64,000 nt of DNA from Blastocatellia bacterium (GTDB taxonomy: Bacteria; Acidobacteriota; Blastocatellia; HR10), in NCBI GenBank assembly GCA_025055075.1, contig JANWYV010000005.1, forward strand, positions 1 to 64,000. Reading direction: 5' to 3'. The number at the start of each line of letters is the position of its first letter. Within the stretch, counting starts at the first letter, position 1. A program made the position numbers and the translations under genes. A model generated the notes under the pieces. That model was not told where the DNA came from and did not search any database. It saw nothing but the letters and a program-made list of their open reading frames with translations. Below, in pieces: positions 14,547 through 38,930 of this stretch.

Positions 14547-15578
14547 TCACATTGGCGCCATCTCTTGCTGCACCCGCTTGACCAAGGCCGCGATCTCACG
14601 CACCTGCTCGACGAGATCGCGGAACATGGGAAGGGTCAGCGACTGCGGGCCGTCCGAGAGCGCGCGATCGGGATCCGGATGCACCTCGATCATGAGCCCA
14701 TCGGCGCCGACGGCGACGCCCGCGCGCGCGAGGGGGATCACTTTGTCCCGACGCCCCGTCCCATGGCTGGGGTCCACAATGATGGGCAAATGGCTGACGC
14801 GCTGCACAGCGGGCACGATCGAGAGATCGAGCGTGTTGCGCGTGTGCTGCGCGAAGGTGCGCACACCGCGTTCGCAGAGGATGACGTTGTAGTTGCCCTC
14901 GGCCATGATGTATTCGGCCGCCAACAGCAGCTCCTCCAGGGTCGCCGACATCCCGCGCTTCAGCAGGACGGGGATACGCGCTTGTCCAGCCCGACGTAGC
15001 AAGCTGAAGTTTTGCATATTGCGCGCGCCAATCTGCATGACGTCGGCGTAACGTTCGACGAGGTCTGCGCTCTCGTGATCAATGGCTTCGGTCACGATCT
15101 TCAATCCGAAGCGGGCGCGCACTTCGGCCAGGATCTTCAGCCCCTCTTCGCCGAGCCCTTGAAACGAATAGGGCGACGTGCGCGGCTTATACGCTCCCCC
15201 TCGAAAGAATTTCACGCCGAGCCGACTCACCCATTCGGCGACCGTCATCGTCTGCTCATAATTCTCGACGGCGCACGGACCAGCGATGATGGTCAGCTCA
15301 TCACCGCCGATGGTCGCCTCCCCAACGCGCACGATGGTCTTCTCGGGTTTGACCTCGCGGCTGACGAGTTTATACGGCTTGGAGACGGGGATGGCTTCGA
15401 TGACGCCGGGCATCCCTTCGAACAATCCCGGATCGAGCGGGCCCGGATTCCCCGTCACCCCGATGGCCGTGCGCTGCGCTCCCGGAATGACGTGCGCGCG
15501 AAAGCCCAACTGCTCGATCTTGCGGACGACAGCGGCGATCTGCTCGTCGGTTGCCCCCGTACTCATGACGATAAGCAT
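14547..15578 (-). CDS. aroF: DAHP synthase, type I-beta with N-terminal ferredoxin-like domain
   Basis: First enzyme of the shikimate pathway: phosphoenolpyruvate plus erythrose-4-phosphate to DAHP. The 343 aa comprise an N-terminal ferredoxin-like regulatory domain (about 1-75, starting [14 protein letters not shown]) and a TIM-barrel core with [48 protein letters not shown] and the ending SDGPQSL. In Thermotoga this N-domain mediates Tyr/Phe feedback (known for that enzyme). GGAGG lies 7 nt upstream of the ATG. A second DAHP synthase fused to prephenate dehydratase lies at 35901-37586, so the genome has at least two. Confidence 0.95.
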
Positions 15579-35595: not shown

Positions 35596-35632
35596 TTGAC
35601 AGGTGAGCACGCTTCCCACATACTGTGTGCTC
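35596..35632 (+). promoter_or_regulatory. promoter with embedded palindrome upstream of the aroF-pheA fusion
   Basis: Consensus TTGACA (35596-35601) is followed by CATACT (35619-35624, 17-bp spacer) or TACTGT (35621-35626, 19 bp). GAGCAC (35605-35610) and GTGCTC (35627-35632) form an inverted repeat centred in the spacer and overlapping the -10 box, a position typical of a repressor operator. Confidence 0.5.
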
Positions 35633-35900
35633 GCATCTTTCGCCGTCGAGGATGTGGAGGATGCTGACGCTGAGGATGAGCGAAGAGAGACGTGGTCTGA
35701 TCCACACGGCGCGTGTATCGTGGTGGATGCCCGCAGCATTGGACTTCTCGCCTCGTCCCCTCTCGTTCTCGACGCCCTTCTACTTTCGTCCGCCGCGGGC
35801 GGACGAGCGCGACTGATTTTCCCCGACGCTGACAACCCATCCCAAGCGAACGTCCTTTCCCGCAAGATCGCGGGAGATCCCTTTTCGAGGAGGTGAGCCT
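35633..35900 (+). other. long untranslated leader of the aroF-pheA fusion gene
   Basis: About 265 nt with no convincing gene; one small frame at 35603-35896 has no ribosome site or recognisable content. A perfect 6-bp hairpin TCCCGC/GCGGGA (35858-35863 with 35870-35875) lies just before a T4 and the ribosome site GAGGAGGTG. The length suggests mRNA-level control, but I see no Phe/Tyr/Trp-rich leader peptide and no T-box. Confidence 0.4.
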
Positions 35901-37586
35901 ATGGCCATTCAGCTGAAACTCGTCAATTGGGAGGCGAAGAAGGAGCGAACGTTGGTGCGCGTGGGGGATCGAATCATCGGCGGCGAGAAGTTCGTCGTCA
36001 TGGCCGGCCCCTGCGCCGTGGAGAATCGGGAGATGATGTTGGAGATCGCCGAGCGGGTCAAGCGCCTGGGCGTCACGATGCTGCGCGGGGGGGCGTTCAA
36101 GCCGCGCACGTCGCCCTATAGCTTTCAAGGCTTGGGCGAAGAGGGATTGAAGATCCTGGCTGAAGCCCGCGAGCGCACGGGACTGCCTGTGGTGACCGAA
36201 GTCCTCTCGCCCGAACACGTCGAGTTGGTCGCCGCCTATGCCGACATGTTGCAGATCGGCGCCCGCAACATGCAGAATTTCGAGCTGCTCAAAGCCGTCG
36301 GCGAGCAACGAAAACCCGTTCTCCTCAAGCGTGGGATGGCCGCCACGCTCGAGGAATTTCTGGCCGCCGCCGAATATATTCTTGTGCGCGGCAACGAGAA
36401 CGTCGTCCTCTGCGAGCGTGGGATTCGCACCTTCTCCGACCACTCGCGTTTCACGCTCGATCTCAGTCTGATTCCCGTTCTCAAGTCGAAGACGCACCTC
36501 CCGATCATCGTGGATCCGAGCCATGGCACCGGCAATCGGCAACACGTCGCGGCGATGGCGCTGGCGGCGATCGCAGCCGGTGCCGATGGGATCATCGTCG
36601 AGGTTCACCCGGATCCGGAGAAGGCCCTCTCCGATGGGCCGCAGAGCCTCTATTTCGAGCAACTCGAGAAGCTCATGCGCGATCTCGAGGTGATCGCTCC
36701 CGTCGTTGGCCGACAGCTCGATCTCTCCTACAAGCCGGTCGTCCCAGCGGCATGGGTGAAGGTCTCGCCGTTGAAGGTCGCCTATCAAGGCGAGCCCGGC
36801 GCGTTCAGTGAGAAAGCCGTCTTCCAATATTTCGGCGAGAACGCCCAGGCCATCGCGCACCTGACGTTCCGCGACGTCTTCGAAGCCGTCGCGACGCGTC
36901 GCGCCCACTATGGCGTGATCCCGATCGAGAATTCCCTGACCGGGAGCATCCACGAGAATTACGACCTCCTGCTCGAATACGACGTCGCCATCGTCGGTGA
37001 GTTGAAGCTGCGGATCGTTCACAACCTCATCGCTCACGAAGGGGCTACTCTCGAGGAGATCCGCCACGTCTACGTCCATCCCCAGGCGATGGCACAGTGC
37101 CACCTCTTCCTCGCGGCGCATCCCGAATGGGAGATCCACCAAGTTTACGATACGGCCGGCGCGGTCAAACACATCAAGGAGAATGGCCTGCGCGATGCCG
37201 CAGCCATCGCCAGCCTCGATGCCGCCAAACGCTTCGGCATGGCCGTGCTCAAGGAGAGCATCGAGTCCGATCCGCGGAACTACACGCGCTTCCTCGTCAT
37301 CTCCGCCGAGCATGCGATCACTGAGAAGGCGAATAAGACGTCGCTCATCTACAGCACGCCGAACGTGCCGGGTGCCCTCCTGCGCACACTCAAGGTTTTC
37401 GCTGATCGGAACGTCAACCTCGTGAAGTTGGAGTCTCGCCCCATCGCTGGTCGCCCCTGGGAATACGTGTTCTACGTGGACCTGGAAGGGAGTCTAGAAG
37501 ATCCGGTCATCGCCGGAGCGATCGAGGACGTGCGGCAGCTGACGGACTTCTTGAAGATCCTCGGCTCCTATCCGGCCTCGCCATAA
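35901..37586 (+). CDS. fusion of DAHP synthase, prephenate dehydratase and ACT domain
   Basis: One 561-aa chain with three parts. Residues about 1-275 are a type I-beta DAHP synthase core ([52 protein letters not shown]) lacking the ferredoxin-like N-domain of the paralogue at 14547. About 290-475 are prephenate dehydratase ([27 protein letters not shown], and the catalytic Thr-Arg-Phe at 462-464). About 480-556 are an ACT domain with the Phe-binding ESRP at 511-514. The ACT domain may let phenylalanine inhibit both activities (inference). No chorismate mutase domain is present. Ribosome site GAGGAGGTG. No stop or frameshift lies between the parts. Confidence 0.93.
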
Positions 37587-37613: not shown

Positions 37614-37643
37614 CTTGACATTGGCGGGCCGCCGTTGGTTGAA
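37614..37643 (+). promoter_or_regulatory. possible promoter of the isopropylmalate-synthase-like gene
   Basis: Consensus TTGACA (37614-37619) is 18 bp from a weak TTGAAT (37638-37643). The expected start near 37650 would leave a leader of about 33 nt containing AAAGGAGG before the ATG at 37683. Confidence 0.45.
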
Positions 37644-37682
37644 TTCTCTTACCTCGCGGGGCGAGGAAAGGAGGCGAGCGCC

Positions 37683-38930
37683 ATGGATGAGCACCCACTC
37701 ATCTACGATTGGAATCGCGTGGGGGGAGATGTCCCGACCGTTCGAGAGATCGAGTTCGATGACGAGACGCTGCGAGATGGCTTACAATCGCCGTCGGTGA
37801 CCAACCCCTCCATCGAAGAGAAGATCGAGATCCTTCACCTAATGGCGAGCTTGGGCATCGAGTCAGCCAATCTCGGCTTGCCCGGAGCCGGACCGCACGT
37901 CGTCGAGACAGTGACGCGCTTGGCTCGGGAGATCGTAGAGGCTCGCCTGCCGATTCGTCCCAATTGCGCGGCGCGGACTGTGCGCGCCGATATTCAACCG
38001 ATCATTGACATCTCGGAGAAAGTGGGCATTCCCATCGAGTGCTGCACCTTCATCGGATCGAGCCCGATCCGCCAATACGCGGAGGATTGGACGCTCGACA
38101 TGATGTTGCGCGCGACCGAAGACGCCGTCACCTTCGCCGTCCGCCACGGCCTGCCCGTCATGTATGTCACCGAGGATACGACCCGCGCCCATCCGGAGAC
38201 GCTTCGGAAGCTCTATACGACGGCCATCGAATGTGGCGCGCGCCGCGTCTGTCTGGCCGACACGGTCGGGCACGCCACGCCGCGCGGCGTGCACGCGCTC
38301 GTGCAGTTCATCAAGCACGTGATCGCCGATACGGGCGAGGATGTGAAGATCGACTTCCACGGTCATATGGATCGCGGCCTCGGCGTAATCAACACGATCG
38401 CCGCCATTGAGGCGGGCGTGCATCGCGTGCACGGATGTGCGCTCGGCATCGGGGAACGGTGCGGGAATACGCCGATGGACCTGTTATTGGTGAACCTGCA
38501 ACTGATGGGGTACATCCGTCGCGACCTCTCGAAACTAGGGGATTATTGTCGCGCCGTCGCGCGTGCCTGCGGCATCGAGATCCCATTCAACTACCCGGTC
38601 GTTGGGCGCGATGCTTTCCGCACGGGGACGGGCGTGCATGCCGCGGCTGTCATCAAGGCCTATCGAAAGAAGGACGTCGAGCTGGCCAATACCGTGTACT
38701 CGAGCGTTCCGGCGCACTGGTTCGGTTTGGAACAGACGATTGAGGTCGGTCCGATGAGCGGGAAATCGAACGTCATCTTCTGGCTGGAGAAGCGCGGCAT
38801 CGAGCCGACCGAGGAGCGCGTCGAACGCATCTTCGCGGCAGCGAAGCGATCCTCGCGCGTGCTCACCGAGGACGAAGTGTGGGCGCTTCTGGATGAATCC
38901 ACCGACGTGCGCGAACGATCCTTCGGATGA
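37683..38930 (+). CDS. 2-isopropylmalate/homocitrate/citramalate synthase-family enzyme
   Basis: Acetyl-CoA-dependent Claisen-type condensing enzyme of about 415 aa (HMGL-like TIM barrel). The metal and substrate motif DETLRDGLQSPSV is at about 27-39; VTEDTTRAHPE, DTVGHATPRGV and the metal-binding FHGHMDRGLGV follow, then GERCGNTPMD. The C-terminal part resembles the catalytic linker region; the full LeuA regulatory domain is missing, so leucine feedback is doubtful. Substrate among these oxo acids cannot be fixed by eye. AAAGGAGG precedes the ATG. Its stop overlaps the M20 peptidase start. Confidence 0.85.
   Translation: MDEHPLIYDWNRVGGDVPTVREIEFDDETLRDGLQSPSVTNPSIEEKIEILHLMASLGIESANLGLPGAGPHVVETVTRLAREIVEARLPIRPNCAARTVRADIQPIIDISEKVGIPIECCTFIGSSPIRQYAEDWTLDMMLRATEDAVTFAVRHGLPVMYVTEDTTRAHPETLRKLYTTAIECGARRVCLADTVGHATPRGVHALVQFIKHVIADTGEDVKIDFHGHMDRGLGVINTIAAIEAGVHRVHGCALGIGERCGNTPMDLLLVNLQLMGYIRRDLSKLGDYCRAVARACGIEIPFNYPVVGRDAFRTGTGVHAAAVIKAYRKKDVELANTVYSSVPAHWFGLEQTIEVGPMSGKSNVIFWLEKRGIEPTEERVERIFAAAKRSSRVLTEDEVWALLDESTDVRERSFG

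Follow-up and report, generated by a model that had tools for sequence, protein, structure and literature searches.

A DAHP synthase joined directly to prephenate dehydratase and an ACT domain in a Blastocatellia bacterium: a candidate bifunctional enzyme of aromatic biosynthesis

The DNA analysed here (the window) is a stretch of 64,000 nucleotides from a Blastocatellia bacterium. Positions 35901-37586 of its plus strand form a complete gene, stop codon included, which encodes a protein of 561 amino acids in a single uninterrupted frame. Pfam and NCBIfam profiles divided this protein into three domains, all conserved in the order to which the organism belongs. A type I-beta DAHP synthase (DAHPS) barrel occupies residues 25-258 (35973-36674; DAHP_synth_1, E 4.6e-85), a prephenate dehydratase (PDT) domain residues 293-470 (36777-37310; E 1.8e-63) and an ACT domain residues 481-545 (37341-37535; E 2e-9). 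The segment separating the first two (36675-36776) comprises the end of the DAHPS domain, a junction motif, APVVGRQLD (residues 266-274), and a flexible linker; it was delineated from motif counts and a predicted model. Scores were above the respective cut-offs for TIGR01361 (type I-beta DAHPS, 399.3 bits for a curated cut-off of 267.75), PRK11898 (prephenate dehydratase, 248 bits), PF00800 (PDT, 214 bits for 25.2) and ACT (37.5 bits for 27). No chorismate mutase domain (CM_2) was detected by Pfam in the 561-residue chain, which is not of the PRK12595 type. The protein also fell short of the P-protein architecture (PRK10622, 198.7 bits for a cut-off of 577), being without the N-terminal chorismate mutase. 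An earlier note, made from the sequence alone, had proposed a direct join of DAHPS to PDT and ACT without a mutase; our searches confirmed this join, together with the coordinates, strand and continuity of the frame.

The start of the gene was examined in relation to the FL domain (PF18152), the N-terminal regulatory domain of the Thermotoga maritima type of DAHPS. The ATG at 35901 lies in the context AGGAGGTGAGCCT-ATG, and a ribosome-binding site, AGGAGGTG, is found 6 bases upstream (35887-35894, plus strand), its counterpart in the congener G001 being AGGAGGCG. No in-frame ATG, GTG or TTG is present upstream of this ATG. PF18152 did not match the fusion protein; it matched the other DAHPS of the genome, a paralogue of 343 amino acids encoded at 14547-15578 on the minus strand, which combines FL (E 3.6e-18) with DAHP_synth_1. 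A tblastn search for a hidden or frameshifted FL-like sequence 5' of the fusion gene, in the window and in eight relatives, did not reveal any. Since a ribosome-binding site serves the short start and no FL sequence lies upstream, the absence of FL from the fusion is genuine, and the difference from the paralogue that the earlier note had pointed out is real.

Further upstream, a perfect hairpin, CGTCCGCCGCGGGCGGACG, is located at 35787-35805 on the plus strand; it recurs in G001, and G002 and G004 each have a version that differs by one change. A promoter-like element, TTGACA-17-CATACT, lies at 35596-35624 on the same strand, about 280 bases 5' of the gene, and is likewise found in G001. The hairpin and this element could form a leader regulator, although no known leader RNA was matched upstream of the gene in Rfam. 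Downstream, 48 bases 3' of the fusion gene, 37635-38930 (plus strand) encodes a LeuA/homocitrate-synthase-like enzyme, which scored below every NCBIfam equivalog cut-off and shows an HMGL-like domain only. An M20 peptidase gene follows directly and overlaps it. This neighbourhood (Opp transporter, LeuA-like enzyme, M20 peptidase) was considered as a functional clue and discarded: it is kept in the congener G001 and absent from the fusion locus in other genera examined within the order.

A PDT search of the genome identified the fusion as its only prephenate dehydratase; the separate pheA that the earlier note suggested looking for is not there, whereas a separate chorismate mutase, a stand-alone AroQ, is encoded at G000:C34. 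DAHP_synth_1 matched three proteins of this genome: the fusion, the FL-bearing DAHPS and a KDO8P synthase. Congeners carry an additional FL-bearing DAHPS adjoining chorismate mutase. The genome of the window is without this gene, about 1 kb being absent around 3371-3549 of L151 (G000:C34) when compared with L162:5498-6550. A TyrA-like dehydrogenase is encoded at G000:C20; PF20463 (PDH_C) gave no match. The possibility that tyrosine is made from phenylalanine alone, leaving phenylalanine as the sole product of the branch, was rejected because no biopterin-dependent hydroxylase was found and the TyrA-like gene is present.

To assess the authenticity of the fused frame, we turned to the nearest genomes. 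A PDT search detected uninterrupted fused frames of 565-652 amino acids, 74-96% identical to that of the window, in G001-G006, G008 and G009, eight relatives belonging to its order. No PDT was found in a further genome of the order, G007, which is 78% complete. PDT frames from other families of the class were mostly shorter, of stand-alone size, or fused to chorismate mutase. Comparison with congeners gave dN/dS values of 0.02-0.03 for DAHPS, 0.07-0.09 for PDT and 0.05-0.06 for ACT, indicating strong purifying selection on all three domains. A hidden stop between the parts, which the earlier note had raised as a possible objection, is thus excluded, as is an assembly join. The idea that an assembly or sequencing error merged two adjacent genes has a negligible probability and was rejected, given that eight further assemblies from the order show the same unbroken frame, that the whole gene is under purifying selection, and that a junction motif (see below) is common to other phyla.

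Alignment showed that the catalytic motifs of both enzymes are intact. In the DAHPS part these are AGPC (35-38), KPRTS (67-71), QIGARN (118-123), KRG (143-145), CERG (171-174), DPSH (205-208), EVH (234-236) and ALSD (242-245). The metal ligands (C38, H208, E234 and D245) and the residues contacting PEP and E4P (K67, R69, S71, R122, K143 and R173) are invariant in the fusion alignment. The dehydratase part retains PIENS (341-345) and TRF (T462-R463-F464), and the ACT domain GALL (491-494) and ESRP (511-514), which in PheA ACT domains are the motifs that bind Phe. Key residues of all three domains are invariant or nearly so in the order of the window and in fused relatives. In an AlphaFold monomer model (mean pLDDT 86.6, pTM 0.71) the DAHPS and PDT-ACT parts are well defined and the linker (276-288) is predicted to be disordered (pLDDT below 50). 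Because of this linker and of the pTM value, the model does not fix the mutual placement of the two parts. Foldseek matched the halves separately to solved DAHPS and Phe-inhibited PDT structures: the DAHPS half to 3pg8 and 1zco (TM 0.93-0.97 on target), and the PDT half to 2qmx (40% identity). The closest fold by target coverage was 3pg8, the FL-truncated Thermotoga enzyme (TM 0.97 on target). No structure spanning both halves was present among the best 50 matches.

We next searched public genomes for related architectures. One scan returned many full-length matches to the fusion at 46-59% identity. Domain profiles built here detected FL-DAHPS-PDT(ACT) in 60 of the loci fetched, from Desulfobacterota, Spirochaetota, SZAS-1 and a clostridium (L089, whose match ends before ACT), and Pfam confirmed FL, DAHPS, PDT and ACT in three representatives. 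Fusions without FL were found in the order of the window, in L051 and in L090, the latter cut by a contig end. In two phylum samples, that of G329 (L041) and that of G326 (L032), the rows listed showed PDT frames longer than 540 amino acids in about 17 of 127 and about 17 of 173 PDT-bearing genomes, respectively; length alone does not define the architecture, six of the long frames in the G329 sample being of reverse order. At least one genome (G332) contains no DAHP_synth_1 match besides its FL-bearing fusion. Judging from these sequences, the DAHPS-PDT architecture is not rare and spans several bacterial phyla. A plasmid search gave nothing further.

Other arrangements were also observed. 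The six reverse-order frames (L219-L224), PDT-ACT-DAHPS of 571-588 amino acids, have PDT domains that fall in another clade than that of the window fusion. Nine loci of the Acidobacteriota phylum (L163, L166-L168, L170 and L231-L234) encode CM-PDT-ACT-DAHPS frames of about 660-710 amino acids, L163 being longer; these might be trifunctional enzymes. The DAHPS part is divergent in L168 and L170. FL was absent from all the frames found in these two orders. In L226 (1382-3262), and also in L214, the fusion lacks AGPC, KPRTS and DPSH and matches DAHP_synth_1 with just 28 bits, while PDT-ACT is intact; here a dead DAHPS domain has probably been retained on a live dehydratase.

In a PDT tree, the order of the window and the FL-bearing fusions formed one clade (support 100/99), in which the order nests beside the SZAS-1 fusion (96/92), apart from the dehydratases of its own class. 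The tree of DAHPS alone, a domain too conserved to resolve the backbone, did not reject a single-origin clade (p-AU 0.39). A junction motif just past the barrel, PV[VILM][GSD][KR], occurs in 58 of 65 FL-DAHPS-PDT-ACT and 9 of 11 DAHPS-PDT-ACT proteins, whereas all 60 stand-alone FL-DAHPS and all 13 reverse-order fusions are without it. Having been defined after inspection of the alignment, the motif is descriptive. On the strength of the PDT clade and of the absence of the motif from the 60 stand-alone proteins, we read these sequences as descending from one ancestral FL-DAHPS-PDT-ACT fusion, followed by loss of FL in the order of the window. The earlier note had suggested that ACT replaced FL as the feedback site. 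As fused relatives keep both domains, on this reading that order of events is wrong: the fusion came first and the loss of FL later, ACT not having been acquired as a replacement. Plain read-through of neighbouring genes of the class was rejected as the origin, since pheA precedes DAHPS there, the reverse of the fusion, and the PDT lies in another clade. The clostridial L089 fusion belongs to a separate lineage according to its sequence: its DAHPS groups with clostridial stand-alone enzymes, and in a sister locus (L088) both genes lie side by side. That DAHPS and PDT were joined repeatedly, and in both orders, suggests that the pairing is useful.

The protein was compared with known systems. 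It shares the I-beta barrel of the Thermotoga maritima FL-DAHPS (55% identity to 1rzm), the type of the paralogue, but is without FL and carries PDT-ACT at its C-terminus. Bifunctional DAHPS/CM enzymes (PRK12595 in Bacillus and Listeria; C-terminal CM in Porphyromonas) likewise combine DAHPS with a later pathway enzyme that doubles as regulator; here, however, the partner is PDT with ACT instead of chorismate mutase. The P-protein PheA (CM-PDT-ACT) has the same PDT-ACT module, whose ESRP/GALL Phe site is intact in the fusion, but its N-terminal partner is chorismate mutase in place of DAHPS. The FL-DAHPS-PDT-ACT proteins of Desulfobacterota and Spirochaetota, which would be the same fusion by descent, differ by keeping FL. 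None of the regulated I-beta forms in Table 1 of PMC6362186 carries PDT-ACT at either end. Our literature searches, with subscription journals largely outside their reach, found no described DAHPS-PDT enzyme. The nearest case was an aroQ-pheA-aroAIbeta pseudogene of Shewanella oneidensis, termed bizarre in 2005 (PMC1173090), which also joins an I-beta DAHPS to PheA, but in the opposite order and with chorismate mutase included. Intact-looking frames in the order of this pseudogene are present in the Acidobacteriota sample (L163, L166, L167 and L231-L234). The architecture, built from known modules, is thus probably undescribed in the searchable literature. The earlier note had called the join unusual; the 60 loci show that it is spread over several phyla.

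We propose that the fusion is a working bifunctional enzyme that would catalyse both DAHP formation at the pathway entry and, in the Phe branch, the formation of phenylpyruvate. It is highly probable that both activities are present, as suggested by domain scores over cut-offs, conservation of the motifs within the order and in almost every fused relative, and selection on each domain. The loss of FL in the ancestor of the order would have left ACT as the sole recognisable effector-binding domain. Given the intact motifs, the dehydratase is likely to be inhibited when ACT binds Phe, in the manner of other PheA-type enzymes. Binding of Phe to ACT may also damp the DAHPS barrel. This second control is plausible, at slightly less than even odds, and we favour it over an unregulated barrel. 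The fusion would then be a Phe-responsive DAHPS isoenzyme, the FL-bearing enzyme at 14547-15578 answering to another signal. Somewhat more tentatively, the order may represent a natural change of sensor, FL having been lost once ACT had taken over DAHPS feedback, so that one Phe site shuts both entry and exit. For the explanation as a whole (bifunctional enzyme, FL lost, control by Phe through ACT) we estimate a probability of roughly one half. A chimeric DAH7PS was reportedly made Tyr-sensitive by addition of the Thermotoga regulatory domain; a chimeric DAH7PS structure (4grs) appeared among our structure matches. Control by fused domains has further precedents: FL confers Phe/Tyr inhibition in Thermotoga, and N- or C-terminal CM confers inhibition by prephenate or chorismate (PMC6362186 Table 1; PMC5526877). 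Against a shared sensor stand the linker, predicted to be disordered, the model, which fixes no arrangement of the parts, and the reported insensitivity of bare barrels. FL is moreover retained in the relatives that have this join, indicating that the join by itself did not require control of DAHPS by ACT.

These observations leave a sizeable chance that DAHPS has been insensitive to feedback since the loss of FL, ACT regulating the dehydratase only. The FL isoenzyme, which coexists in the genome, would then control entry, and the fusion would provide a constant basal flow. According to Table 1 of PMC6362186, none of Phe, Tyr and Trp inhibits I-beta barrels that have no regulatory domain (Pyrococcus, Aeropyrum), and both the flexible linker and the match to FL-truncated 3pg8 fit such a barrel. 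However, unregulated entry would waste PEP and erythrose-4-phosphate, and the entire order is without FL yet keeps the fusion under strong selection.

An overlapping explanation, which we consider unlikely, is that the fusion merely ensures co-expression in one chain, without cross-talk or functional consequence. In L156, from a different family of the class, and in the clostridial L088, DAHPS and PDT are encoded by separate adjacent genes, so that loss of a stop codon would be an easy route to fusion. The gene order in the class is nevertheless opposite to that of the fusion, the fused form has been retained across several phyla, and its origin more than once, in both orders, suggests selection.

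Less probable still is control of DAHPS by prephenate, or phenylpyruvate, in the dehydratase site, comparable to the Bacillus/Geobacillus-type CM fusions. Prephenate-driven closure of the fused domain over the DAHPS site is known in DAHPS-CM fusions (PMC5526877; PMC6362186 Table 1), and a C-terminal enzyme, the Porphyromonas CM, can do likewise (PMC6362186 Table 1). PDT is unrelated to CM, however, and no feature of sequence or model indicates such control. Only a small share of probability goes to other effectors acting on DAHPS.

The I-beta DAHPS is a textbook illustration of how a single barrel can gain varied regulatory domains (none, FL, N-terminal CM or C-terminal CM). Relatives with both FL and ACT, set against an order with ACT only, provide a ready-made experiment on the movement of allosteric control between domains. 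Through the fusion it can be asked whether a single sensor is able to control the two steps; this natural test also bears on whether non-consecutive enzymes, here the entry enzyme and a Phe-branch enzyme, fuse for control and not for channelling.
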